From Ceraceosorus guamensis (Eukaryota > Basidiomycota > Exobasidiomycetes > Ceraceosorales > Ceraceosoraceae): 64,000 bases of DNA. The stretch covers positions 32,662 to 96,661 of the forward strand of contig NW_020290060.1 of the NCBI RefSeq assembly GCF_003144195.1, written 5' to 3'. The notes beneath the pieces are model-generated. The model was not told where the DNA came from, searched no databases, and was given only the letters and a program-made list of their open reading frames with translations. Positions 9,658 through 62,963 of the stretch are shown here, one piece after another (the stretch's first letter is position 1; each line of letters opens with the position of its first letter). The position numbers and the translations under genes are program-made.

Positions 9658-11193
9658 ATGCCGTACACTCCTCACAAAGCTTACGTCGTAGGCGTCGGCC
9701 TTACCAAATTTGACAAGCCCCGCGGCGAGCGTGATTACCCCGAGCTCGGTCTGGAAGCCACGGTCAAGGTGAGTAGCGATGCTCAGCATGCCTACTCTTG
9801 CACTCGCGTGACTGTCTTCGCATTGCCAGTCACAATCGAGCTGACCCGACATCACCTCTACAGGCACTCATCGATGCCGGCATCACTTACGATGATGTCG
9901 AGACTGCCGCTGTGGGGTACTGCTGTGAGTCTAATGACGGGTCCCTTGCAGCGTCCATACTGTACGCTGATTGCGACCACTCCCTTCCTACCAGACGGTG
10001 ACTCGACTTGCGGACAGCGCGCCCTGTATCAACTTGGTATGACCGGCATTCCCATCGTCAACGTCAACAACAACTGCTCCACTGGCTCTTCTGCCTTTGT
10101 CCTTGCTGCCAACAGCATCATGGCAGGTCAAGCCGACTGCGCACTGGCACTCGGTTTCGAGAAGATGGCACCAGGCTCTCTCGGATCCGCATGGAACGAT
10201 CGAGCGCCTCCTATGGAGGGCACCATGTCTCAGCTGTTTGAAATCGAAGCCGAAAAGGAGTACAAGACGGATGACTTTGGACCTTTTGCTGCTCGCATCT
10301 TCGGAGCTGCTGGTCAAGAGTATGTGGAAAAGTACGGCGCCACTTGGGATCACATCGCTGCAATCGCTGCCAAGAACCACAAGCACAGCGTCAAGAACCC
10401 CTATGCGCAGTTTAGGGTCTCTCCGAGCCCACAAGAGGTAGCCAAGGCCCGCAAGATCACGCGCGAGGTGACATTGCCCATGTGCTCCCCCACCTCTGAT
10501 GGAGGCGCCGCTGCAATCGTCGTGAGCGAGGACTTTATCAAGAAGCACAATCTCCAAGACCGAGCAATCGAGATCGCCGGTCTGGGAGTGTCCACCGACT
10601 CTCCAAGACTCTACGAGGATCGCTCTAGAATCGAACTTGCCGGTGCCGACATGAGCCGGCGTGCGGCAACGATTGCTTACAAGCAAGCCGGTCTGACCGC
10701 CAAGGACATTCAGGTCTTGGAGCTGCACGACTGCTTTGCTCCCAACGAGCTCGTCACCTACCCTGCTTTGGGATTGTGCGCCGAGAATGAGGCTCACAAA
10801 ATTGTCGAGGCTGGCGACAACACTTTTGGTGGAAAGTGGGTCGTCAACCCTTCTGGAGGTTTGGAATCCAAGGGTCACCCGCTCGGCGCGACAGGTCTCG
10901 GCATGGTGGCCTACATGGCTTTGCAGCTGCGCGGCGAAGCGGGTGCGCTGCAGGTCGAAAACGTCAAGGCCGCATTGACGCACAACATCGGTCTCGGTGG
11001 TTCTTGCGTCGTTTCCATCCTCAAGAAGGCCTCCTTCTACAAGGATGGCGCTCACAACAAGGACCGCTTCGGATACGACTTTGCCAACGAGTGCAGGCGC
11101 ATGACCGAGGAGGAGCTCGAAAAGGTCAAGAGCAAGCACTTCTCCGATTACTTGCCCGCTTCTATCCCCGAGCCGCAGACCTCCAAGCTGTAG
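9658..11193 (+). CDS. Peroxisomal SCP2-type 3-ketoacyl-CoA thiolase (SCPx thiolase domain)
   Basis: Exons 9658-9768, 9864-9924 and 9995-11193; 456 residues. The start MPYTPHKAYVVGVGLTKFDK is the usual beginning of the SCPx thiolase family. The nucleophile Cys lies in NNNCSTGSSAF, and the catalytic His in SKGHPLGATG, followed by HNIGLGGSCVVSIL. The last residues are TSKL, a canonical type 1 peroxisome signal. In animals this thiolase is fused to a C-terminal SCP2 carrier domain; here the protein stops after the thiolase, and a separate SCP2-domain gene lies 26 kb downstream. Expected role: thiolytic cleavage of 3-oxoacyl-CoA (branched or sterol side-chain substrates in animals; fungal substrate unknown) in peroxisomal beta-oxidation. 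A 414-residue antisense open frame over it is judged a shadow. Confidence 0.93.
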   Translation: MPYTPHKAYVVGVGLTKFDKPRGERDYPELGLEATVKVSSDAQHAYSCTRVTVFALPVTIELTRHHLYRHSSMPASLTMMSRLPLWGTAVSLMTGPLQRPYCTLIATTPFLPDGDSTCGQRALYQLGMTGIPIVNVNNNCSTGSSAFVLAANSIMAGQADCALALGFEKMAPGSLGSAWNDRAPPMEGTMSQLFEIEAEKEYKTDDFGPFAARIFGAAGQEYVEKYGATWDHIAAIAAKNHKHSVKNPYAQFRVSPSPQEVAKARKITREVTLPMCSPTSDGGAAAIVVSEDFIKKHNLQDRAIEIAGLGVSTDSPRLYEDRSRIELAGADMSRRAATIAYKQAGLTAKDIQVLELHDCFAPNELVTYPALGLCAENEAHKIVEAGDNTFGGKWVVNPSGGLESKGHPLGATGLGMVAYMALQLRGEAGALQVENVKAALTHNIGLGGSCVVSILKKASFYKDGAHNKDRFGYDFANECRRMTEEELEKVKSKHFSDYLPASIPEPQTSKL

Positions 11194-23896: not shown

Positions 23897-24340
23897 AAGG
23901 CGCGACCTTCGCCCCGTAGTCATCTCATCACTTTCTCGTCACCTCATCTTTGCACCTGAATCGTCCTTGGCAAGGCGGTGTCGGGCTCATCGCATCTCCA
24001 ACGCTGTTCACTCGATATCACGCTCGCTTGTACCGAGCACCTTCTGTTCGCCTACTCTTGATACCGCATCCACTTCTTTTTAGCACGCACTCCCTGCTCA
24101 CTCTAACCTCTTTGTCGTCCTTTTTATTGTACCGCCTGCTTCGTCATATTTGGACGACACGGACTCATTCGATGCGCCTCTCGATGTGCGCTTGCTGCTC
24201 CGTGAATCTCATGCACATTCTGCATCGACCAGTAATTGGATCGAGCTACGCGCTGCGATGAATAGAGCTCGTGGGGGCCCGATGATCATAGCCTGTCCGG
24301 GACAGAGAATGCACAGCCTTCTGTGCAATGCACAACGAAT
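23897..24340. other. Intergenic 3'-3' spacer
   Basis: 444 bases between the convergent wall-protein and HMG-CoA lyase genes. It is T-rich near 24060-24130, fitting 3' UTR and termination sequence. No gene seen. Confidence 0.55.
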
Positions 24341-25601
24341 TCACAGCTTGCTTTGCTTTGCGCTCTGAGATTTGACTTTCGCGCGAGCAAGGATAGCGCG
24401 ACCTGCGCTGCTACCATTGGGTCTATCGAGCTGTTGTGAGATCCAGGCGCCAATTTGCGCCAAAGCGTCAAGATCGAGGCCAGTGTCGTACCCTGATTCG
24501 TGAAGCGCATAGACCACGGACTCGACGTCAACGTTGCCGCTAGCGCCTGCAAAGGGCCAGAGGGGTCAGCCTTCCTTGCTTTCTTACAGTCAATCAGGAG
24601 GGCACACTGGAGCGAGCGTTGCTCGTGCACTGCAGCCCACTCACCCGGCGAGTACGGGCAGCCACCGAGGCCACCAACAGCTGCGTCGACCACTCTTACG
24701 CCTGCATTGACCATCGCTAATACGTTTGCCACTGCTGATCCAAAGGTATCGTGGCAGTGCGCGGCGAAGCGCACAGAAGGTGCATGACGCGTACACTCGT
24801 TCAGCACATTGAGCATCTGACCTGGTGTCCCTGCACCAGTAGTGTCGCCTAGGCTGATCTCGTAACATCCCATCTCCAGCAGCGTCTTTGCAATTTTTCC
24901 GACGTCTGCAGGATTGACCTTTCCCGAGTACGGACAGTCCGCGACGACACTGATGTAACCCCTCACCCGAATCCCATGCCCTAGCGCTTTGCTGGTCACC
25001 TTGGACAACCGCTCCAAGGATTCATGGATGGTACAGTTCGTGTTGGCTTTGGTGAAGGCGTCGGTCGCGGCTGTGAAGATGGCAATCTCGTCTGAGCGTC
25101 CGGCCGCTCGACCTTTGGGCCCGACCATGTCCAGGAAGTTGACCAAGCCCCTGTCATTGGGCACCAAGAAGGGATAAGAGACGCCTTGCTTGACCGTCAT
25201 TTGCTCTAGCACAGCTGCAGAATCTGCCATCTGGGTGGCCCTCTGTGTAAGCGCTATGGCTCTCGCACCTCATGCGCGCACCCTTCTCGCTGCGTATTCA
25301 CCTGAGGAACCCACTTGGGACTGACGAAAGAGCCCGCTTCCACAGTCTCGACGCCCGCTTCCTCAACCAGCCTTCGAATCAGCTCAAGCTTGGTGGTCAG
25401 CGGGACGACTTGTTTCTCGTTTTGCAGTCCATCTCGAGGAGACACTTCTACAATCCGCACGTGATGAGGGCTATCCTTTCCCAGGCCTGGACTGAGCGCG
25501 ATGCTGGCAAGGGCTCGAGAAGTAGCGCACGGCAGCAGGCTGTAAGCATCTGCTCTCGGGCGTGCCATGCTCAGGGCTCGAGTGACGCTTCTTGAAATCA
25601 T
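24341..25601 (-). CDS. HMGCL: Hydroxymethylglutaryl-CoA lyase with C-terminal SKL
   Basis: Exons 25302-25601, 24645-25230 and 24341-24546; 363 residues. It splits HMG-CoA into acetoacetate and acetyl-CoA, the last step of leucine breakdown. Residues 1-45 form a basic, Ser/Arg/Ala-rich presequence (MISRSVTRALSMARPRADAY), suggesting mitochondria. Family blocks follow: VEVSPRDGLQNEKQ, EAGSFVSPKWVPQMAD, GYEISLGD-type CYEISLGDTTGAGTPG, FAAHCHDTFGSAVAN, and the active-site Cys loop GGCPYSPGASGN, interrupted by the last intron. The protein ends QSKL, a type 1 peroxisome signal (vertebrate lyase ends CKL), so dual mitochondrial and peroxisomal targeting is likely. It is head to head with a peroxisomal thiolase 559 bases away. 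An upstream-extended start in the same frame exists but lacks ATG support. Confidence 0.94.
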
Positions 25602-26160
25602 CTCGAGTTCTTCGGCGTTATGGATTTGCTGGGACGCTTCTTGGGTGAATGCAAGCCAAAGACATCGAACCTGTGACCCTATGTATCGGACATTGCTTAG
25701 GTGCGCAACCGCTTCGATCGTCACACCCACCAGCACTTTGGGATGTAGCTGGGATGTGTGGAGTGGAAGGCAGGCAACGCGCACCGTATATACACAGCGT
25801 GCTAGCTGAGAGGAACCCGCACGGGGAGCCGAATTTGCCGTGATGCCAGTTCTCGCGCGAGTGAGCCCAAGCCGCTGTCCATTCCCCACGCAAAGGCATG
25901 AAAGTCGGCCCGGAAGTGCCGGCATGCCCTCCGCGCTCGTACGGACGTGGATGTGCTATAGGTGTGCCCACGACCCGAACCATATGATCGATGCGCATAC
26001 AGCCAGCGGGGTCGGCCCAGCAGGAGAATATGCAATGTCCAGGAACCAGTCTCGAGGTCAGATCCCCTTTCCTTTCTCCCTAACACCCACAAGCCCGCGA
26101 TTCTGGTAGCTAGGTTTCGAGCTTCTCTTCTGGAAATCAAACTAAAGCTGTGACACGACG
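25602..26160. other. Bidirectional promoter region, HMG-CoA lyase / thiolase
   Basis: 559 bases between two outward-starting genes whose products both carry peroxisome signals. No credible gene inside. I found no strong palindrome or TATA box placed symmetrically for both genes. Confidence 0.6.
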
Positions 26161-27948
26161 ATGGCGCAAAGGCTTCAACAATTTGCTTCTCACCTCGATC
26201 CGCGCACATGGTCAGGCAAAGGTTTGGCCCACGCCAAGCTGAAGAACGATGACGATGTGGTCATAGTGGCGACAGGCAGAACGCCCTTCTGCAAAGGGTT
26301 CAAAGGTCAGCTCAAAGACACGCCCTTCGACCTGCTCTGCCTTGAAATCTTCAAGGGCATCATTTCCAAATCTCAGGTCGACCCCAAGCTCATCGAAGAC
26401 GTCGTGGTGGGGAATGTGAGGAACGACTTCAACGCGTACCACATTCGAGCTGCTGCTCTCGCCGCCGGCATCCCCAACTCAAGTCCCACCCTGGTTGGTC
26501 AGTCATCGGCGGCACCCGATCAGCATACATGGCTCCGAGTTGTTCTGACAGCTTCCTTCTCATCCCTCAGTCAACCGCTTCTGTTCCAGCGGTCTCATGG
26601 CTATCCGCACCGTTGCAAACCAGATTCAGACGGGCGAAATCGACTGTGGACTGGCGGTCGGCATTGAATCGATGAGCCAAGGCCCCTCGCCAAAGCTCAA
26701 CTTCTCGCCCGAAGTGGAGAATGGAAGTCAGGAAGCGTTCGACTGCAAGTACCCCATGGGCTGGACAAGCGAGAACGTTGCAGGTGAGAATGATTTCATA
26801 CTTCTTCAGCGCATCGAGCGAACGTTCAGTATGCTGAGTTGTGTCACGTTGCTAAGGCGACTTTAACATTTCGCGGGAGAGGATGGACGCCTGGGCGGCG
26901 CAGTCGCACCAGCGGGCAGCAGCAGCGCAAGCCTCGGGTACATTCGACGCAGAGATAATTCCAATCACGGCAATCGAAAAGCAGGGCGAAGCGCGAGTGC
27001 ACAAAGTAGTCTCTGCAGATGATGGCATTAGATCAAACAGTTCTGCGGAGAGCTTGGCAAAGATCAAGCCTGCCTTTCCCCAGTGGCAACCGGCTCATAC
27101 CACTGGCGGCAACGCATCACAGATCACGGACGGTGCGGCTGGCGTATTGCTTATGAGACGTAGCTTGGCCAACAAGCTGGGCAAGAAGGTCATTGGCAAG
27201 TACGTGTCTACCGCAGTCAGCGGTCTTGCTCCGAGGATCATGGGCATCGGTCCTAGTCTGGCTATTCCGAAAGTGGGTACAGTATTTCCCATCGTTTTAC
27301 CCTCCGACCAGGCTGACGTGCACATGGGGTCGGCTCCTTCCAGGTGCTCGAGCTGAGCGGCATCTCCAAGGACCAGGTGGACCTGTTCGAGATCAACGAA
27401 GGTAAGCTGTGTTCCTGCGACTCAATCGCCATTTGCGCTGACACCTCATGCTGCATTAAATAAGCTTTCGCTTCGATGATCGTCTATTGCAAGGACAAGC
27501 TCGAGATTCCGGATGACAAGCTGAATGTGAATGGTGGAGCATGCGCTCTCGGTCATCCGCTTGGTGCAGTGAGTATCGGCGTGGGCATCTTCTTGCCGTC
27601 AATCCACTGATGGCTACTCTATTCGCAACATTAGACTGGTGCGCGTCTGGTCGTGACAATTTTAAACGAACTGGAAAGGCGCAATCAGCACGTCGGCGTC
27701 GTCTCCATGTGCATTGGTCTGTGAGTGCTGTGCACAGTCCGTCGGAAGGCGATCATGCAGCCGAGTGCGAACTTTTCTACAACTACATCGAACGCTGACA
27801 ACGACCCCGTCATCTCTCTCCTTGTTCTCATTAGCGGTATGGGCGCTGGTGAGTACCGCGAGGCCAACGTGCGCGAAGTGACGAGTCCGCTGAAAGGTTG
27901 CTCCGCGCTCTCTTCTCTTTAGCTGCCGTAATCCTTCGCGAAGACTAA
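26161..27948 (+). CDS. POT1: Peroxisomal 3-ketoacyl-CoA thiolase (PTS2 type)
   Basis: Eight exons: 26161-26497, 26571-26783, 26857-27272, 27344-27401, 27465-27568, 27635-27720, 27835-27848, 27923-27948; 417 residues. Residues 4-12, RLQQFASHL, fit the PTS2 consensus R-L-x5-H-L, so import by Pex7 is expected. Catalytic features: nucleophile Cys in [17 protein letters not shown], the His in [11 protein letters not shown], and the second Cys in CIGLGMGAAAV. It cleaves 3-oxoacyl-CoA in the last step of straight-chain beta-oxidation. Exon 7 is a 14-base microexon inside the CIGLGMGAAAV motif; without it and the next exon the motif is broken. The first donor is the less common GTCAGT. Confidence 0.93.
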
Positions 27949-30340: not shown

Positions 30341-31218
30341 ATGAAGTTCAGTCTGGCAGCCGTTACCGCGCTCCTTGCCGTCGCTCAAACTGTGACCAGT
30401 ACGGCAGTGATTACTCAACCGGTCGCATCCACGGACAAGAACGGTGGCAGTCGCCTCACCATTGAGTGGCACGACGACAACAAGGCCCCCACGCTGAAGG
30501 ACTGGGGAGACATCAACATCTACCTCGCTGCTGGATCCCAGAACGTCCAATTCAAGCTCCAAGAAGTGGCTGCTGGCGTCAAGAGCACCGCTACTTCGAG
30601 ACGTTTCAAGATTGACCCTAGCATCGGCGAGACTGGACAGTACTAGTGAGTAGAGCAGAGGCACCCGGATCAATGTACAGGGCGCGTTGGCTGGCGAGGC
30701 GATGCCGGTTGCGAGGACGCCGAGACTCAATTTACGGCGTTGGTCGCATGGCGCTTTGTTTAGCATGCTGCCCGCACGGACATTCATCCAATTACGAATA
30801 TAGTCGCCGCGTCCCCTACATATTTGCTGACACTTCTCTCACTGCACCTCCTGTGTCCAGCTTCATCCGCATGGAGGGCACCAAGCTCGGAGCCAACAAC
30901 CTCCCGCCCATGTCCTTCTCTGCCCGTTTCAAATTGGACAAGATGACTGGTCACTTCAACTCAACCGTCCTTGCGGCAGCGAAGGGCCAGGAGGGCGCTG
31001 CATCTCCTACTGCCGGCGCGGCAAAGGTGTCGTCTACCTCGACTCTCAGCACTCAGAGAGCCTCTGCGACCCCTCTCACCGGCAGCGCTTCTGCCAACCG
31101 TAGCTCTTCTAACACCTCGGGCTCGAGCTCGGCTGCTGGAATTGTCTTGCCCGCTCACTTCTTGAGCGCAGCTGCCGGTATCGGAGCTGCGGCTGTGGGA
31201 GCCGTGATGCTCTTGTAA
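30341..31218 (+). CDS. Kre9/Knh-like GPI-anchored Ser/Thr-rich protein
   Basis: Exons 30341-30645 and 30861-31218; 220 residues. A signal peptide (MKFSLAAVTALLAVAQTVTS) is followed by VITQPVASTDKNGG and LTIEWHDD (about 25-50), then IYLAAGSQNVQFKLQEVAAG and YYFIRMEGTKLG. This pattern, a beta-rich Ig-like domain beginning with P and W near the start, matches the Kre9/Knh1 N-terminal family. Residues about 145-195 are Ser/Thr/Ala-rich and probably O-mannosylated; the end is hydrophobic (FLSAAAGIGAAAVGAVMLL) after a small-residue site, indicating a GPI anchor. Relatives affect cell wall beta-1,6-glucan or are wall proteins of unknown role. Confidence 0.75.
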
Positions 31219-31853: not shown

Positions 31854-32913
31854 TCAAACACAGTGGACAGTGCCGTCAGCGTGAGTGTGGCAGTCCTGTG
31901 CTGCAGCTGTGGCGCTGGCTGAGGTGCTCGTCGCTGAAATCGTGCTTGTGGGAGAGGCGTCGTGATCGTGATCGTGATCGTGATCGTCATGTTCGTGCTC
32001 GTGGTCGTGGTCCTCGTGATGCCTATCCGCAGGGCAACCCTGCTCGTCGATGTTGGCGCGCACAAACGCTTCAAACGCAAAGTCTTGCAGCGAATGCTGG
32101 TTCTTGACGCTCTCCGTCACGTTGTTCCTGGCCAATTCTAGAAGGGCCGGATACTCGTCTGCCGTGTGGCCGACGTGGTCGTTGGTCATCGTTGGCAGGT
32201 GCATGGCGCGGTGCAGCAGATCGGTGGCCCAGTACACATTAACATTGTCGTGAATCAGCGAAAAGCCATTTGCGCAAGCCTTCTCGATGGGCAAGCGAGT
32301 CTGGAAAGAGAGAGGGCAAATGACCGTCTCTCCGGTGGCGCTACGATCGGAGATGCAGAGGAATGCAGAGGAGACGCTTCGGTCAATGACTTGCCATGCT
32401 GACACTATGGTCAACTTTCTCGACTCACTTGTTTCCGCGCCAATGACCATTGTAAGTTGGCTGCGTCTCGCAGTTGCGATCCGGGTCATCGCAGCGGAAA
32501 AGAGTGGCACTCTTGTCCGACTCGAGAACTCGCAGGTAGATCCCAAGAGGTACGCTAGGATCAGAACCTTCTCCGAAGTAGGTTTGATACACTTCCGACT
32601 GGTTGCCGTGCAGCAGAATGTGGTCCGCAGCGCCTCGCAACAACCTCTTCAGGTCGAACAGACCGCGCTCCAGCTGCATACGTTGCGACTTGTTGCACGA
32701 CTCGTGAATGGGAAAATCAGGCTGCAGGGAACGAGAGGCTGGGCTCGTGATAGTAGGAGGGACGAAGGTTTCGTTGGAGGCGACGGCCTCCTGACGCGCA
32801 AAGACCCCAAAGTTGGCACCGTCTACGATGGGTTCAGCAACATAGGGGCGAGCAATGGCGGTCGTGACCACGGTGGCAGCCAAGGTGCTTAAGAAGGTGA
32901 CAGTCAACTTCAT
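31854..32913 (-). CDS. PRA1: Secreted zincophore, Pra1 / Asp f 2 family
   Basis: Exons 32429-32913 and 31854-32340; 323 residues. The start is the ATG of MKLTVTFLSTLAAT, a signal peptide; an upstream in-frame GTG is not used. The family core is present: CDDPDRNCETQPTYNGHWRG (about 142-161), ETVICPLSF, and TDLLHRAMHLP with the two zinc-site His (205 and 209), then a conserved DEYPALLELA helix. Residues about 269-289 are almost only His, Asp and Glu, followed by a Ser/Thr linker and the terminal Cys/His motif CHTHADGTVHC (312-322). In Candida albicans Pra1 captures zinc outside the cell and docks to the cell; in Aspergillus fumigatus aspf2 is divergent from the zinc transporter gene zrfC. The same divergent arrangement is seen here. 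A role in zinc scavenging is inferred from these. Confidence 0.9.
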
Positions 32914-33012
32914 TTTGAGAGTCACGATGGATCGGGGTGACTTTTGAATGGGGTGGGGGTCGAGCTACGTTGGACTGAATGGATGTGCTCGAAAGGTTAC
33001 ATGGAGGACTTA

Positions 33013-33019
33013 CTTTATA
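33013..33019 (-). promoter_or_regulatory. TATA box of zincophore gene
   Basis: TATAAAG on the minus strand, 100 bases upstream of the zincophore ATG. Confidence 0.55.
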
Positions 33020-34302
33020 CCTGCCAAAGTGAACCGCTATCCCAGCTAGTACTATTTAGCAGCACTCAATGATCCACGAAAAGCTTCTTTGCGCGTGCAG
33101 CTGGACGCTCAACATGACACATGAACGCGCCCACAATTTGGACTCTTGTGTGTCGTCGCTCGAAGGACTCAGAGTACCTTCACAACCCCGTCGAACGTGG
33201 CTGACGGTCGCCAAGACTTCCTTCGAGGACCTTGCGGGTGTGACTGTGAGCTCAAATCGCGCGTGAGAAACCGCAAATTTTGCTCCGGCGCGAGATTCTG
33301 CCAAGGAGGGTACCTCATGGGCACCGACATCTCTCATCGACCGAAGAGATGTTGGCGGCTGGCGGCATCCAAAGTGGTGATAGCTGCTGATCCCGGCGGG
33401 GCCGAGCGGATCAGGACGGGCTTGGGCGGCAAGGACCCGCAGCGAGGGCTGCCTGATTGTCGTTCGACCTTGAATGACCACCGCTCATCTTCGACGGAGG
33501 TACATGTCTTGGCGCATGAAACAAACGTTAGAGTACCGAAGTGCGTTCCTGGCGGACGAATGCTAAGGATGGACTCGCTGAGCACGCTTTGATTTGTACT
33601 CGAAGCCCAGGCTATCGTGCGGTGCAGCTATGGCACGCTTGTGCGCGCATGGAGAGTAGCTGTGCCGCGATGGAAAGGCAGGTAGGTGCCTTACTTGCTG
33701 CAGCCACGAACCACTGGGCCCTACTACTGATGACAATCGTTGATCGTGTGCGAGTTGTAGAGAGCATGCGCTGCTGCTGGAAACGGTGCTGCTCAGGGCT
33801 AAATGGATGCTTCGCATGGGTCGCGGCGAGGTGAGTGAGCTTTTTTGGACGCGCTTAAAGGCGAAGCTTGGCATGCACGACCGCGAGGGTCCTCTTTGCG
33901 CGTCTTTTGGTGCAAGAGCTGGATTTTCCCGCAAAGATGCTCCTGCTGCGGTCTTTCGTGAATCGATCAGGCTTGAGTCTAGGTCGTGGCCGGGGAGCGA
34001 TTGTACTTGCGGCTTCTGTGAGAGTCAGGGACTCTCGGGTTGCGCGAGTCATCCACGACGGACTCAGCTGGGGGCTCACCCTTGGCCTGTATACCAAATG
34101 AAAACGCCAAGACCGAGACCCCGAATATCAGGCACGAGGGAGCAGAGAGCAGATGGTAGGAAGATGAGCGAATTCCTCCGCCATTGCGATGGCCATGGGT
34201 GCGCGAGACCAAGCCAGGACTGGGAAAGGGAGCCGACGGCCGCGGAAAGCTATGGCAACCCCGAGAGCCCTCTTTGATTGAGATCACAGCCGGCAGAGTC
34301 TC

Positions 34303-34309
34303 TATAAAG
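34303..34309 (+). promoter_or_regulatory. TATA box of ZIP transporter gene
   Basis: TATAAAG on the plus strand, 92 bases upstream of the transporter ATG; the same heptamer at a similar distance as in the divergent zincophore gene. Confidence 0.55.
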
Positions 34310-34400
34310 ATCAGTCACATTTGCTTGCAACCTTACATGGACCCTCTGGCACAGAAGAGGTGCTGTTGACATCCTTTCGTGACATCAACTTCTACACGTC

Positions 34401-36009
34401 ATGAAGCTCCAGATCGTTTTCTTGTGCGGTGCGCTCGCCGCGAGTGCCGTCTCAGCGGCCAATGTTCTCGCAGCTCGCCAAGCCGGTCCGTCACCGACTG
34501 GTCGCGGGGCCTGCGTGCTCTCCGGCGGCGCCTGGACCTGCGAGCTCGCCGCTAGCGGCGCAGCAGCAGCTCCGATTGCAACCTCCGTCAACTCCCTGAG
34601 TGGCGCAGGTGCTGCCTCTCCGACTGCTACGGAAGCTTTACCGCCGGCTACAGTGACAGTCACCGAAATGGTAGAGCCCAGTCCGACTGGTCTGGGTGCT
34701 TGCCATCTTCACGGCGATCATTGGCACTGCGACGAAGAAGGCGAAGAGGGTCATGACCACAGCCACGAAGGACACGATCACAGCGGACATAGTCACGCCG
34801 GTCATAGCCATGCAGGCCACAGGTGAGGATTGTTGCGTCCGGTTTCGCATGCTGTGTGCTGACAAGTGACAGTGGCTCCCCCTGATGCAGCCATGGTCCA
34901 TCCGAGGAGTTTGGTTGTGGGCTTGCACCTCTGGAAGAGTACAATTTACCATTGCACGTAGCTGCAGTCTTCATTCTCCTGGTCGCCTCCATTGCAGGAG
35001 TTGTCTTGCCTTCCTTTGGGAACCTTCTGGAGCGCGCTTTTGCTACTACAGCCTCGCAATCCGCTACCTTTCGACGTTGGACTGGAAGCTTCACCTTCGC
35101 CATGCGCCACTTTGGGGGTGGGATCATCTTGTCCACCGCCTTCATTCACCTGCTCTTCCACTCCTTCATCTACTTCAACAACAGCTGCATTGGCGAGCTC
35201 CAGTACGAAGCTGCATCAGCGGCAATTGCCATGGCAGCCGTATACGTCATGTTTCTTATCGACTTCCTCGCCCTTCGACCGTTGCGACGTCAAGCGTACG
35301 CCGCCCAGGAACGCGCATTCGCGTCTGGAGCGAGGAGTACTTCCGATGACGACTCTGTCGAAAAACCCAACGAGCGCGCCTTGATACCTGAGGAATCAGA
35401 TGGACATGCGCACGAGTCGATTGACCTGCTCAAGCATAGCGAAGGTCGCATGGCCAAATGGAACGTTCTCGCTCTGGAAGCTGGCATTGTCTTCCATAGC
35501 ATCATCATTGGCGTGACGATTGGCACCGCTTCTGGTGAAGGTTGGGTGGTGAGTGTCCATGTCTCAAAGATGATTCAAAGAAGTGAAACATATTGAACCC
35601 GTCGCCGCTTTGCCTTTAGCCGCTGTTGATCGCCATTGTATTTCACCAATTCTGCGAGGGTCTTGGCTTGGCGAGCCGAGTGGTCCTCCTTCCTTCCTCC
35701 GTTCTGAGCAACACTTTGAAGTTCGTCATGCACCTCGTCTTCATCGTGACAACGCCCGTGGGCATCGCCATCGGCATTGGCGTGCGACAGTCCTACAACG
35801 GGAACAGCCGGGGCACTCTTCTAGCAGTCGGCATCCTCGACGCGATCTCGGCCGGCATTCTGATCTACGCGGCCCTCGTTCAGATCATCGTCAACGACTA
35901 TATCTTCAATCGCGAAATGACGCGCGCTTCAATGAAGCGCTGCGTTGCCGCCCTGACGTTCTTCACGCTCGGCCTGTTCGTCATGTCCGTGCTTGGATAC
36001 TGGGCTTGA
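34401..36009 (+). CDS. ZRT1: ZIP-family plasma membrane zinc transporter
   Basis: Exons 34401-34822, 34891-35548 and 35620-36009; 489 residues. A signal peptide (about 1-19) precedes a 130-residue extracellular N-terminus. This holds two copies of a PSPTG(R/L)GAC... module: residues 30-47 (AC-VLSGGAWT-C) and 93-110 (AC-HLHGDHWH-C), then a GHDHSHEGHDHSGHSH-type tract to about 140. Eight membrane segments follow; the metal-binding ZIP signatures are HSIIIGVTIG (TM4) and HQFCEGLGLAS (TM5), plus RHFGGGIILSTAFIHLL. The cytosolic loop before TM4 is acidic and long. It should carry Zn2+ inward. The neighbouring divergent zincophore supports a high-affinity zinc uptake role. Signal-anchored N-termini are not universal in this family. 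Confidence 0.93.
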
Positions 36010-38006: not shown

Positions 38007-40765
38007 ATGGGTCTGCAATGCTGTTGCTACAGTCATATTTGGAATGGGCTCTTCGAGCTTACATGTCGGTCTGCGAATGCCCAGACTCGTGTTCCTTTGT
38101 CATGAGCGCCGCCCTCTCTTCTGACTACCGCTTCGTGAAATGGATGCATTGGTCACAGCCTCGAAGCGACGGCCTGCTGTCGTGATACTTCACCGAGCAT
38201 CCATCGGCTGTGGAGCGTCTACCGCGGATTGTTCGAGGGCAATGTTGCAGCTCATTCCTTCGGCCAGCCCTGGCTGTGATACTCGTGACTCTATAGGACG
38301 CGGATACTTTGTGGGATCTTCCAGGAGGGTAAAGTAGTCTGCTGCCTGCCTCATAAACGTGAGCGTTCGTGAATTGAGGCATCTGCAAGGGACTCGTCGA
38401 GCGCACATACATTATGCATCAGCAGGTGCTCGTCTTCTCCGTCTAGCGCGCGTAAAAGCGGCCGACCTGACTTGGCAGCTGCGCTTTGGCACACCTGCTC
38501 AGCTCCTGACGGCCACGGTACATTCGCAGTCAGTCGCAGCACACAGAAAAAAGGGTCTTGCGGCTGATTCAAAGGAAAGGTGAAGACGCAGTCACCATTG
38601 GGAGACACGCCAGTTGGTGTCCTGAACTCAAGACAGATCTCGCAGCAAGTCCCTTCGCGCTAAGCCGTTGCTTGAGCGCGTGATGGGCCAATTCGCCATT
38701 CCTTGCTCCTTGCATATGTTGTTGCTGCGCGCCCGAGACTCACCGGCGCAGATAGTTGGTGGTCGTGGATGACAGCTGATCAGGCCAAGCCTCTCAAGCA
38801 CATACATGTCTTCGGATCGATTACAGTATCGACATGCATTCACGGATTATCTGGCCGGGAGGAAATTCACGAATATGAATTTTGAATGGCAAACAATCAC
38901 GAACGGTGAGTCACGAGTGCACGCATGCCCGCGTATGAGCATCAGCCCCCTCAAGTCCCAAAATCAGCTTCGATGATATCACACACGCATCACCAAGAGT
39001 CTCGCGGGCGCCGGCGCGCGCGCGGCTGCTGATGCTGCATGGGATTTGGTTTGCGCGCAGGATGTCTGAAACCGTTGTCTGCATAAAACACGCGCGCCCT
39101 TGCTCCTTGCTATACATACATGATGCGTAGGCAGCCCCTGATTTGAGCTTCGCCTCGATCGCGGACGTTCGTCTGCTGAGGCAGCCTTGTTCACCGTGAC
39201 TGTCTCTTATTGCTTACAGGCACGCTGGAGCGAGTCTAGTCATATGAGCGCTGCTCTTTTCTGCTTCAAATTTGTCTGCCTCCCGGGCCGTCTCCCCTCG
39301 ACTCTTCACCGCGCTCTCAGGCTACATCACATGTACTGGTCGAGCTGGCAGCCGGAGAGTGCCGATGTACAACGATGCCAGGAGGTTGTCGCTGGCCGCA
39401 GAGCGCTTTGACACGGAGATCCAACGGTGCCGAGGTCTGATCTCACGTCCAGACGAAGTTGCGCACTATTTTCAAGGGTCGTCGCCCACACAGATGCTTA
39501 CATACTTTCCCGAGCAGGTCGCTTATATGCAGGGGTCATGTTACAATCTCAAGCACGAATCGTGATCGAAGAGGAAGTAGAGCAACGTCCGTAGAGCGAT
39601 TCAGTGATTCACGAATCGCGGCTTGGCTCGACGCTCGTCATGATCTCATCGCTGGCGTTATAGAGTCCTGATCTGCCCCGTGCCTTGCTCCGGGAAGAAT
39701 AAGATGCGGTCCCGGACACGGCTTGGCTACTGTAAGTCATCGAATGGCTGCTCGAAGCTGTACCTTGCTTTCCGTTGTGATGGCTGCGGCTCGCGACGAT
39801 CGTGGTGCCTAGCCGGCGACGCGGTCCACCACCTGCAGCGACCCGAGCTTGGGCCTCCTCAGCATACAACAAGCACAAACAGGCTTTTAGGGGGTGATCC
39901 ACCTCATCTACCTTTCCTCGCTCCCTTCTTCGCAATAGGGTCCGGATCAGAGGGCCAAGAAAAGTTCGTAAGCCCTCACCCACGACCCTCACCTTCACAA
40001 TTGAAGAAAGACAGGGACTCCTTCGGTATTCCTTCCACCGTCCCTGCCATTGCCCTTACCACTGTTCCTCGCGTTCACGATTGTCCCTCTCCCTCACGTA
40101 GCCCTTATTGCCAAGTCAGGCACCTTGAACGCCCGTCACCGGCCCTTAAGCTTAGGTCAGAGGTACAAAATACGCCAGCCAGCCCGAGCCTGACCACGCT
40201 CCCAAACATATTTCCGCCCCTGATCAAGCCCACATTGACGATACGCAACACCCCTGCCTCGTCCGCCGGTGCTCAGCCAAAGCTTCGCCGAAACATCTTG
40301 GTGAGTCCGAACGAGGATCTGTGTTTGTACGGCTGCCCATCGTGAGACCAGCGTTCATTCGCTAGAGGTGTGGGCGCAGGACCGCTCAGCTTCGCTCAAC
40401 ATCAGAGCGTTGCAGAATGGGTCACAGGGTAGAGTGGGATGCTGCGCCGGCGCAAGTGCCGCAAGCTTGCCTCGTCGAAGTTTGTTCGCGCAGCTTTTGC
40501 ACGCCTTTCATGGGCGCACGGCTCCTCAGAGCTGAGCATTGCGTGCGCTCTGCCTGTACCGGACCTCTTTGCAAACCGACATGTGGTCGTCTACGACGGA
40601 GAGCAGTGGCGCTGCCCCAACCCATATGCGCGGGTTGTGTCCATCAAATGCGGCGTGGCGTGGTCATGAAGACTACCATCATCTCACAAAGCCACGACCA
40701 ATGTTTTGCGAGTGCTCTTCTTTCGTTCGGCCGCTTTCGATCTCGCATCGCTGGTCGCAAAGGCA
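38007..40765. other. Intergenic, 2.8 kb
   Basis: Between the SCP2 gene and the Ser-rich giant open frame. It holds the densest set of dispersed-element copies (38865, 38895-38918, 39554, 39606). A 221-codon open frame at 39680-40345 has Pro/Ser/Thr-rich, database-like low complexity and no ATG context or domain; it could be a leader exon of the next gene, but I cannot support it. Confidence 0.5.
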
Positions 40766-43700
40766 ATGGAGCGCAGAGGAAGCGGCGAGAAGCTCAGCCA
40801 AGCTGGTGCATCCAGTCGTGAAGCCTCAGTCAAGCGGCGTGCAGCGGTGCAAGCTGCCAACGACCTCTCCCTGTACTATTTGCATTCACTGGCTGGTGTC
40901 TCTGTCCGAGCACACACGAAGGACAGACGCGCTGATGCTGGCTCTCCACATTCATGCAGGCTTCACTCCATTAGCCAGCGTGCATCGTCCATCGCGTCAG
41001 ACTCTTTACTGGCTCCAGGCTCAAACTCTAACTCATCCACACGATATCGACGCTCGACGGTCTCCTCTACCTCCTCATCCCGGCAGCCTCGAGCGAAGGC
41101 GGAACCTTCTCTTGTACCGACGTGCGATCTCCAAATCCCTTCAACGCTCCAACATCAGTGCCGACTTCCCGATCTACATTCTCGAGAACGTTCACTTCAG
41201 CAATCTGCTTCTCCCAAAAACTGCGAGTTCAAGGGCAGCGAGCCAAGACTCTCTACCACTCTTCACAAAATCTCGCAGTCCAGTCCATCCGCTTCAGCAG
41301 AGCTTGCTCCCATTCGTGGTCTCGCAAAACGCTGCTCCGCTTCACATTGTCGTGGTGAGGATCTTCAGGAACTGCTGTCATTGCCTCGCGCTTCCGAGGC
41401 CACGCGTCCCTCACCTTCTCAGGAGACCTGGCCGCTAGCTCTGATCTCCACCAGCTCTCACTCGGCAAGTGCTGGCAGTCCCAACCCCTCGCGTCGTTCT
41501 CCCTCAGCTTGTGACGTCCAATTACTTACCCTCGTCTCGACGAGTGTGAGGCACCGACGGGGCCGTAGTCACGGTCAAGACCAACGAACACCCGCGGCCA
41601 GTCGCTCTCAAGGGACCACGAGCTCTCAGCTACTTTCTGGTATAGCCGGTGACAAAATAGCTCAAACTTGGTATCACTCCAGCATGCTCATTAGGAACGG
41701 TTGTGCTGCGACTGCATTCCCTCCCAAGCTCGGCTCTTTGAGCAGCCCTCGGCCACTGTCTGCAATAGACATGTCATCCACTTGCGGAGACCGCGTGTCA
41801 GAGCCAAGCACCATCAGCGGTGCAATGCCGACGGTCTCTGAAGATGCTGGAAGTGCTACGGAGACAGAGCGTACACCGACACCTCATTGGCGATCAAAAT
41901 TCGAGCAATCACCTGTGGCGCACCAACGTCAAGCTTCTCGTATCACAGTACAACTCCACAGACGAGGTCAAAGCGACGTCGGCGTGACGTCGAAGTCTCA
42001 GCTTGCGGGCGACGGTGATATTCAGAACCGCAAGCATGAATTGCCAAGAGGTCCGACTCAAAGCACTGATGGAGAGTGCATGGAGGTGCTGATCATGGGC
42101 AGCCTCCAAGCAGCGGGACCAACTCACCCTTCAGAGCGCACTTCTCGCTCTCGACCTCGCGCCAGCACGTTCAGCATTCCTAGTTTCCACCCGTCTGTCG
42201 CAGATCCTGCGCCAGAGCGAGAACTTGCCAGCGAGCACCGCAACCGACGTCGCAGCAAAGTCCTCTTTCAACAAAAGCTTGTTGCTCGACACGCACGCAG
42301 CGCGTCAAGAAGTGAGACGGGTGAAGTGGTCCACACTGCTTCGTCGCGACCTCGGCGGAGAACGAAGAAGCCCTTACCATTGGAGCGCCCAGCCGTACCA
42401 GCACGTCGAGCATCGAAGAGCAACGTGCTTGACACTGCTGAAGTCAGGCTCCACAAAGATCAGCTTCAGCTTGAGTGGGAAGATCACACGCTAGCTACCG
42501 CCAAGCTGTTCATCGACTGTGGTTACGGCACGCTTTCGGCCCCATCTAACCTCCACGAAGCTGGCATGCGATGGCCGAGCGTCGCTGGACAAGGTGCTCC
42601 AGCATGCTGGAGCGCGAGAAGTACAGGACTGGCGACGCCCATGTCACGCATCACCTCGGAATTTGCAGAAGAGGTAGAGGCGTGGAGCAGCTCGGATGAA
42701 GAGGGGCATAGCCAAGACCAACGCAGTCGACGTCAGCTGGAGGCTTTCAGCACTCCTCTGTCTAGTCCGCGCACCGCTTTTGACTTCAGCGCTGTCCACC
42801 AGGCTCAGGGTAGAAGCCGCGCTGCCCTTCGTAAATTGCCGCCGTCTTCATCCGCGACTCTATACGAGCGAAGGCCTCTACCTCTGCCGCCTGTGTCTGG
42901 GTGCGATGGATCTGCACTCATCCCACACTGCACGAGTGATCTTCTGGAAGTAGGCAAGGAGAGCTCACTTCTTCTCCACCTTGGGCAAAGGAGCACGTGT
43001 CAAGATCTGATGTCACGAGCCGTTGACCAAGCGGCTGCTCAGAACATGCTGCGAGTCCGCAGTAGCTCTAGCGTATCTTCCAACTATAGCGAATCAACCT
43101 GCGCTTCCAGCTTGATGTGTATTCCTGGGGACGAGGTGACGGTAGCGAGGGAAGGCCTATCGGACTGGTCATCACCAGCCAGCTCTCTTCCATCTCTATA
43201 CTCACCTGATGCCTCGCCAAGCAGCTTCAGGGGACGCGATCTACCTCCCGTGCTCACTATCAGCCCCGGGGACTGTGCCGACCTCAACAGAACTAGCCTT
43301 CAACGGGACTTCTTCGCTGCGCCGGGCAAACACCGTAAGACGTCGGACCATAACTCAGGCACAGCAGCCCGGCACCTCACCGCCTCACGAGAAGGCGAGA
43401 GCAGGCTGGGACCTCACACCCCAGTGCGCGCCGGTAGTCTGCACAGACCAGCACCACAATCCTGGAACCCTAGCGCCACACTGCTCGGTGCATGGCTGAG
43501 TGACAGTGATGATGCCTCGAAGCCCCGCTTCATCGACCCATTCTCGGCGGGGCGCGAGCCTCTCAAACACGAGCCAATGCCGGTGGTGCCTCCCAAAGGC
43601 TCTGCCATGTTGCGACTACATTCTACCCCAGTCACGGGCACTGGCCCCGCGGCAGGATTTGGAGATTCGCGCTCGCTCGCTGCTTTCGTCGCCGATGCTG

Positions 43701-44311
43701 AGCAGAGCGCAGCAAGGAGCCAGTCGACCCCAGACGCTGCGCCCACCAAGACGGGCTCCACCTTCTTTCGCCGCTTCGAGCGTGCACCTCGAAGCGCAGC
43801 ACCTCTACGTGCCCGAGCGTCGGATGCGTCAATTGATATCTCTCGGAGACACTGCGATTCGGTCATATCAAATCATCCTGTGTCGAGGTCATCGAGCCCC
43901 TATCTTCAGCCATCTGCGGCGGCTTCGCAATCGCGGCTAGGAGCCAAAAGCTTCGGGCGTAGCAGCTTCTCACGTCTCCGAACATCTGGTACCGCTGGTC
44001 TTGCTGCACTCGCATCAGTTATGGACAAGAACCCGGGTGAAACAAGATCGGCCGGCCGAGCACCAGACGATAGTGGGTATATCACCGACTCCCAGAATCG
44101 AGAGCCGGCAGCTGCCAAATCAAGTCATAGTCTATTATCAGTTGCTGGAGAGCCAAGCAGTCTCCGACTTGGAGTGAGCCGATCGGGATCTCGACTTGGC
44201 CTCACGAACTTAGGCTGGTCGCGAGATCGCAAAGACTCTAGCAGGACATGTGTCGACCAAGACCCAACGCGCTCCCGCACACCTAGCATATCACGTGCGC
44301 TTTGGGCTTGA
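40766..44311 (+). CDS. Large Ser/Arg-rich disordered protein, unknown
   Basis: A single uninterrupted frame of 1181 codons from the ATG of MERRGSGEKLSQAG; the frame stays open 60 bases further upstream but without ATG. I recognise no domain. The sequence is rich in Ser, Arg, Pro and Ala with patches typical of phosphorylated regulatory or scaffold proteins (SRSRPRAST, RRSKVLFQQK, SSSVSSNYSEST, SRSSSPYLQ). The most ordered-looking stretch is EVRLHKDQLQLEWEDHTLAT near residue 560-580. The C-terminus has recurring GSRLGL/SRLGAK words. The length of the open frame in 56-60% GC DNA and third-position bias favour a real gene, but 5' exons may be missing and the first 100 codons are the least certain. 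Confidence 0.65.
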   Translation: MERRGSGEKLSQAGASSREASVKRRAAVQAANDLSLYYLHSLAGVSVRAHTKDRRADAGSPHSCRLHSISQRASSIASDSLLAPGSNSNSSTRYRRSTVSSTSSSRQPRAKAEPSLVPTCDLQIPSTLQHQCRLPDLHSRERSLQQSASPKNCEFKGSEPRLSTTLHKISQSSPSASAELAPIRGLAKRCSASHCRGEDLQELLSLPRASEATRPSPSQETWPLALISTSSHSASAGSPNPSRRSPSACDVQLLTLVSTSVRHRRGRSHGQDQRTPAASRSQGTTSSQLLSGIAGDKIAQTWYHSSMLIRNGCAATAFPPKLGSLSSPRPLSAIDMSSTCGDRVSEPSTISGAMPTVSEDAGSATETERTPTPHWRSKFEQSPVAHQRQASRITVQLHRRGQSDVGVTSKSQLAGDGDIQNRKHELPRGPTQSTDGECMEVLIMGSLQAAGPTHPSERTSRSRPRASTFSIPSFHPSVADPAPERELASEHRNRRRSKVLFQQKLVARHARSASRSETGEVVHTASSRPRRRTKKPLPLERPAVPARRASKSNVLDTAEVRLHKDQLQLEWEDHTLATAKLFIDCGYGTLSAPSNLHEAGMRWPSVAGQGAPACWSARSTGLATPMSRITSEFAEEVEAWSSSDEEGHSQDQRSRRQLEAFSTPLSSPRTAFDFSAVHQAQGRSRAALRKLPPSSSATLYERRPLPLPPVSGCDGSALIPHCTSDLLEVGKESSLLLHLGQRSTCQDLMSRAVDQAAAQNMLRVRSSSSVSSNYSESTCASSLMCIPGDEVTVAREGLSDWSSPASSLPSLYSPDASPSSFRGRDLPPVLTISPGDCADLNRTSLQRDFFAAPGKHRKTSDHNSGTAARHLTASREGESRLGPHTPVRAGSLHRPAPQSWNPSATLLGAWLSDSDDASKPRFIDPFSAGREPLKHEPMPVVPPKGSAMLRLHSTPVTGTGPAAGFGDSRSLAAFVADAEQSAARSQSTPDAAPTKTGSTFFRRFERAPRSAAPLRARASDASIDISRRHCDSVISNHPVSRSSSPYLQPSAAASQSRLGAKSFGRSSFSRLRTSGTAGLAALASVMDKNPGETRSAGRAPDDSGYITDSQNREPAAAKSSHSLLSVAGEPSSLRLGVSRSGSRLGLTNLGWSRDRKDSSRTCVDQDPTRSRTPSISRALWA

Positions 44312-59808: not shown

Positions 59809-62963
<3,155 letters not shown>

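Follow-up and report, generated by a model that had tools for sequence, protein, structure and literature searches.

A divergent PRA1-ZRT1-type gene pair of Ceraceosorus guamensis, a well-preserved example of the known fungal zincophore locus

The closest described systems are the PRA1-ZRT1 (ZRT101) pair of Candida albicans and the aspf2-zrfC pair of Aspergillus fumigatus. The head-to-head arrangement was published in 2012 for C. albicans and for all Aspergillus species then sequenced, and in Ustilago maydis and Sporisorium reilianum the PRA1 and ZRT1 orthologues were reported to have their upstream region in common; the linkage was considered older than the split between Ascomycota and Basidiomycota, and soluble Pra1 was reported to need Zrt1 in order to bind the cell (PMC3386192). 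A survey of 102 species in 2017 recorded Pra1 orthologues in 87 of them and linkage in 61 of these 87, so that the linked arrangement is common and often absent (PMC5751234). The pair has also been traced through Cryptococcus and Kwoniella, being lost in all pathogenic Cryptococcus (PMC11185503). The novelty of the linkage implied by an earlier note on this DNA is therefore not borne out, and the comparison of gene order in smut relatives that it proposed is in part already in print (PMC3386192).

The locus described here lies in a window of 64 kb, by which we mean the whole stretch of DNA analysed. It is a clean and well-preserved example of the known fungal zincophore locus rather than a new system, and it is as such that it adds to the catalogue of these loci; the small additions made here are a histidine-free sister of the transporter cassette and a moderate enrichment of GCCARG hexamers. 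With the C. albicans pair the locus shares the head-to-head orientation, the HRxxH+H triad, the CHTHxxGxxHC tail, and the CHxHxxxxHC site of the ZIP protein. With aspf2-zrfC it has in common the divergent common promoter, a zincophore with a Cys/His tail, and a transporter with a long N-terminus carrying zinc motifs, which is extracellular in ZrfC and probably so here. Basidiomycete cases of the same divergent pair are found in U. maydis, S. reilianum, and non-pathogenic Cryptococcus and Kwoniella (PMC3386192, PMC11185503). We regard it as highly probable that this is the PRA1-ZRT1 (aspf2-zrfC) zincophore locus, with its function as a pair taken from the homologues.

The Pra1/Asp f 2-type gene on the minus strand and the ZIP gene on the plus strand stand head to head, with 1,487 bp (32914-34400) between their start codons. 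Spliced models of both genes were built by hand with GT-AG borders and preservation of the reading frame, and the intron of the Pra1-type gene is required, as stop codons are met when it is read through. The homology of both proteins to their families is far beyond chance. Together with Pfam and PDB matches, the spliced models bear out the coordinates, gene identities, divergent orientation, and common upstream region given in the earlier note, and the joint role in zinc capture that it suggested is likely, backed by the sequence and by the published homologues. The main features of the two genes are as follows.

31854..32913, minus strand: zincophore gene of the Pra1/Asp f 2 type, with two exons encoding 323 aa (spliced model, Pfam, PDB 9n47)
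32429-32913, minus strand: exon 1 of the Pra1-type gene (spliced model)
31854-32340, minus strand: exon 2 of the Pra1-type gene, stop included (spliced model)
32341..32428, minus strand: 88-nt intron, GTGAGT...TAG, of the Pra1-type gene (spliced model)
32166..32213, minus strand: histidine-triad codons, HRAMH (aa 205-209) and H220 (alignment to C. albicans Pra1)
31956..32021, minus strand: linker rich in His and Asp, aa 269-290 of the Pra1-type protein (translation of model)
31860..31892, minus strand: C-terminal zinc cassette CHTHADGTVHC, aa 312-322, matching CHTHxxGxxHC (translation of model)
34401..36009, plus strand: gene for a Zrt1/ZrfC-like ZIP zinc transporter, three exons, 489 aa (spliced model, Pfam)
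34401-34822, 34891-35548, 35620-36009, plus strand: exons of the ZIP gene (spliced model)
34823..34890, plus strand: ZIP intron 1, 68 nt (spliced model)
35549..35619, plus strand: ZIP intron 2, 71 nt (spliced model)
34701..34730, plus strand: ectodomain zinc cassette CHLHGDHWHC, aa 101-110 (spacing as in CHFHAGVEHC of C. albicans Zrt1)
34731..34820, plus strand: acidic His-rich run, exon-1 part, aa 111-140 (the run continues to aa 143)

The Pra1-type protein matches the Pfam family PF13933 (HRXXH) with an E-value of 7.4e-72 and 242.3 bits (cut-off 27), covering positions 23-242 of the 245 in the profile. Among solved structures it comes closest to C. albicans Pra1 (PDB 9n47; 2e-50, phmmer), with identity at 99 of 256 aligned residues, and at 76 of 198 in the core. 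For the mapping onto 9n47, an offset of 13 was applied between chain and full-length numbering, upon which the triad and the C-terminal cysteines fall at their published positions. Residues H205, R206, H209, and H220 align to H178, R179, H182, and H193 of C. albicans Pra1 and are all identical; H178, H182, and H193 constitute the zinc triad defined by cryo-EM (PMC12663325). All six core cysteines, which form three disulfides in C. albicans Pra1, are identical in the alignment, the same disulfides being putative here, and the two cysteines that the C-terminal cassette contains are likewise identical to those of the solved protein. Of the four asparagines reported to be glycosylated in C. albicans Pra1 (PMC12663325), three are kept (N48, N135, and N208, but not N89); in the Pra1-type protein they correspond to N74, N162, and N235, each within an NxS/T sequon. 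By analogy with its homologues the protein is putatively secreted, and hydrophobicity windows detected a single hydrophobic segment in it, at aa 3-21.

Several features distinguish the Pra1-type protein from its C. albicans counterpart. The HAXXH motif is absent, the corresponding residues being G94-A-A-D-H98 with G94 in place of H68. In the available text of PMC12663325, HAXXH is reported as an ascomycete feature missing from all basidiomycetes analysed there, and it does not define the family. The C-terminal CHTHxxGxxHC, by comparison, is a feature of most Dikarya zincophores, and its presence along with the lack of HAXXH fits the basidiomycete pattern outlined in PMC12663325, a correspondence that is suggestive only. 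The basidiomycete motif HNSIXHXL, known from a figure legend in PMC3386192 and compared by its description, has as its counterpart GAADHIL in the protein studied here. The residues that build the hexamer ring of C. albicans Pra1 (PMC12663325) are mostly changed, with 3 of 14 aligned contacts identical (Q54, D71, and D107) and five N-terminal contacts falling outside the alignment, so that a ring of this kind is no more than putative here. The linker carries a long His/Asp run, whereas the aligned stretch of C. albicans Pra1 is without one.

The ZIP protein matches Pfam PF02535 (Zip) over aa 162-485 with an E-value of 1.3e-43 and 149.9 bits (cut-off 35.1), and the metal-site motifs HSIIIG and HQFCEG are located at positions 343 and 369. 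An N-terminal hydrophobic segment (aa 1-25) is followed by an N-terminal domain extending to about aa 150, which is probably extracellular, and by eight further hydrophobic segments of the core (two overlapping windows being counted as one), the first of which starts at aa 157. The PDB search with this protein returned one match (E 0.077), covering the His-rich run only. To judge from its cassette and its linkage, this transporter probably belongs to the Zrt1 clade and not to that of Zrt2.

A pattern of the form CHxHx3-5HC occurs only twice in the six-frame translation of the 64-kb window, once in each gene of the pair. Upon shuffling, a pattern of this type appeared in 67 of 200,000 trials for the ZIP ectodomain and in 468 of 200,000 for the Pra1 tail. 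When the two cassettes are aligned (CHTHADGTVHC and CHLHGDHW-HC), their score is reached in 39 of 5,000 shuffles. In C. albicans Zrt1, the equivalent CHFHAGVEHC lies within a peptide that was put forward as the likeliest zinc site of that transporter, with a more stable binding of zinc than is seen for Pra1 (PMC9780748; see also PMC8773511).

The common upstream region was searched for six types of motifs. Among these, GCCARG is what we take to be the PacC/Rim101-type core, and the consensus strings for the yeast Zap1 element (ACCTTNAAGGT) and for the TATA and GATA sites are likewise our working assumptions. The following sites were considered.

32914..34400, no strand: divergent upstream region, 1,487 bp, with 8 GCCARG hexamers (motif counts)
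33014..33019, minus strand: TATAAA of the Pra1-type gene, 101 bp ahead of its start codon (motif scan)
34303..34308, plus strand: TATAAA of the ZIP gene, 93 bp ahead of its start codon (motif scan)
33225..33239, minus strand: best ZafA/ZR-like site, 14/15 of the A. fumigatus consensus, core CAAGGT (consensus from the available text of PMC6070888)

The GCCARG hexamers are moderately enriched. Their number (8) was reached in none of 200 shuffles (mean 2.3) and in 4 of 1,000 on repetition (mean 2.2), values to be read with the six motif types in mind; equal-length windows elsewhere in the 64 kb contain 2.9 on average, and none of 1,191 reaches 8, although these windows overlap and are worth roughly 40 independent ones. 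GCCAAG alone is mildly enriched, with 6 occurrences (reached in 27 of the 1,191 windows; 37th of 982 hexamers). The two TATAWA sites are matched by 14 of 1,000 shuffles, and GATAAG is absent from the region. Control of the pair by pH may be considered weakly supported by this motif content; in U. maydis, a zinc gene called ZRT2 is reported to be induced under alkaline conditions (PMC12692688).

Candidate sites for a zinc-responsive regulator do not stand out. The region contains 2 ZafA-type CARGGT cores, which is not above chance (384 of 1,000 shuffles reach this number, and 41.5% of 200 in another run), and zinc control by a conserved site therefore remains putative. The yeast ACCTTNAAGGT, with up to 2 mismatches, gave 4 matches over both strands, corresponding to 2 places that both lie over CAAGGT cores; this count was equalled in 70 of 1,000 shuffles, which is borderline and is not claimed. 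The A. fumigatus ZR motif with up to 2 mismatches was found 5 times, against a mean of 2.6 in 200 shuffles, 9% of which gave at least as many. Three ZR motifs are described for aspf2-zrfC in the available text of PMC6070888, whereas the ZR core is not enriched here. Hidden genes in the upstream region were considered and rejected, as none of the 5 ORFs of at least 100 aa reaches a Pfam cut-off; three of them gave two weak sub-threshold matches between them and the other two gave none, and 2 antisense ORFs had no Pfam match above the cut-off.

Taken with the published homologues, the locus very likely encodes a zinc capture-and-uptake pair, for which the following course of events can be proposed. 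Scarcity of zinc, probably combined with a neutral to alkaline pH, would turn on both genes from the common 1.49-kb region. The Pra1-type protein would be secreted and would capture zinc with its histidine triad and Cys/His tail, after which the zinc-loaded protein would go back to the cell surface. There, it would pass the metal to the N-terminal domain of the ZIP transporter, which presumably faces outwards and carries the matching Cys/His cassette and the His-rich run, and the transporter would import the zinc so received.

A rival reading is a lost pairing. If both genes are as identified but no longer cooperate, then the Pra1-type protein would have some other surface or secreted role, the ZIP transporter would import free zinc alone, and the adjacency would simply be inherited. 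The linkage is missing in 26 of the 87 PRA1-bearing species and is therefore dispensable (PMC5751234), and the chance-level frequency of ZafA-type sites in the upstream region also agrees with such a loss. Nonetheless, neither protein has lost its known zinc ligands, and their matching Cys/His cassettes are hard to explain unless both have a zinc role, so that we consider a loss of pairing quite unlikely.

That the HRXXH protein is an active metalloprotease, secreted and with no relation to the neighbouring transporter, is far less plausible and deserves almost no credence. Pfam labels PF13933 as a putative peptidase family, and the fold of Pra1 resembles deuterolysin (PMC12663325), but the first histidine of the motif is followed by an arginine (R206) instead of the catalytic glutamate, and the third ligand is a histidine (H220), as in C. 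albicans Pra1, which "does not exhibit proteolytic activity" according to the title of a supplementary figure in PMC3386192. A protease function of the HRXXH protein was rejected because of the replacement of the catalytic Glu by Arg. That two zinc-related genes adjoin by mere chance is scarcely credible, given that the same pair in this orientation is on record from Ascomycota and Basidiomycota alike, two smut fungi included (PMC3386192).

Returning to the transporter of the zincophore pair, its ectodomain contains a second, divergent copy of the module that carries the cassette.

34512..34541, plus strand: histidine-free sister of the cassette, reading CVLSGGAWTC (aa 38-47), within a PSPTGxGAC module that is repeated (local alignment)

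The segment PSPTGRGACVLSGGAWTC (aa 30-47) is a sister of PSPTGLGACHLHGDHWHC (aa 93-110), with a local alignment score of 74 that none of 5,000 shuffles reaches (mean 22) and with 33 of 54 bases identical. In the first copy, all four cassette histidines are gone, and both cysteines as well as the tryptophan are kept. ZrfC has four putative N-terminal zinc motifs (PMC4343018), as compared with one intact cassette, one histidine-free copy, and the His-rich run in the protein studied here. A protein secreted by Beauveria has repeats of a similar element, CxxHxDHWHC, according to PMC12099005, which was the sole match of a literature text search for HGDHWHC, HGDHWH, or DHWHC. Given this repeat and the zinc motifs of ZrfC, the ectodomain module therefore has relatives; in the available texts of the cited literature, we found no description of a histidine-free copy. 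It is conceivable, albeit doubtful, that the zincophore would dock on this copy, closed by a disulfide, and that the other copy would accept the zinc, the two tasks being divided between the sister modules. Should the histidine-free copy prove to have a function, it would give a way into studying how the zincophore docks on its transporter and hands zinc over to it.

The 64-kb window gave no matches in tRNA and Rfam scans. With the Pra1-type protein as a single query, a search that detects close relatives only, 48 stretches of bacterial and archaeal genome contigs and 1 of viral contigs matched the pattern, and 0 were confirmed in either set. The description of the zincophore pair as the best candidate for a functional gene pair in the window is fair, with the qualification that the window holds another candidate. 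This is a pair of HMG-CoA lyase-like and thiolase genes, also arranged head to head, at 24286-27353.

Another head-to-head gene pair in the window, in addition to that of the zincophore and ZIP zinc transporter genes, is located at 24286-27353 and comprises an HMG-CoA lyase-like gene and a thiolase gene:

24286-25925, minus strand, ORFs of the HMG-CoA lyase-like gene (top PDB match hydroxymethylglutaryl-CoA lyase, 3.5e-50)
26161-27353, plus strand, ORFs of the thiolase gene (top PDB match peroxisomal 3-ketoacyl-CoA thiolase)

The two genes are separated by 235 bp, as measured from the ORF ends, and acyl-CoA thioesters are substrates of both enzyme families. A second thiolase-family gene (Pfam Thiolase_C_1 and Thiolase_N) is found at 9658-11193, and an exon resembling 2-isopropylmalate synthase (Pfam IPMS_D2, LeuA_dimer, and HMGL-like) at 61836-62963.

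An ORF with a Kre9/KNH-like N-terminal domain, followed downstream by a Ser/Thr-rich ORF (together 30341-31218), is convergent with the zincophore gene; the two ORFs are probably exons of a single cell-surface protein gene. For the 1,201-aa open frame at 40706-44308, a Pfam search at an E-value threshold of 0.01 yielded no matches.
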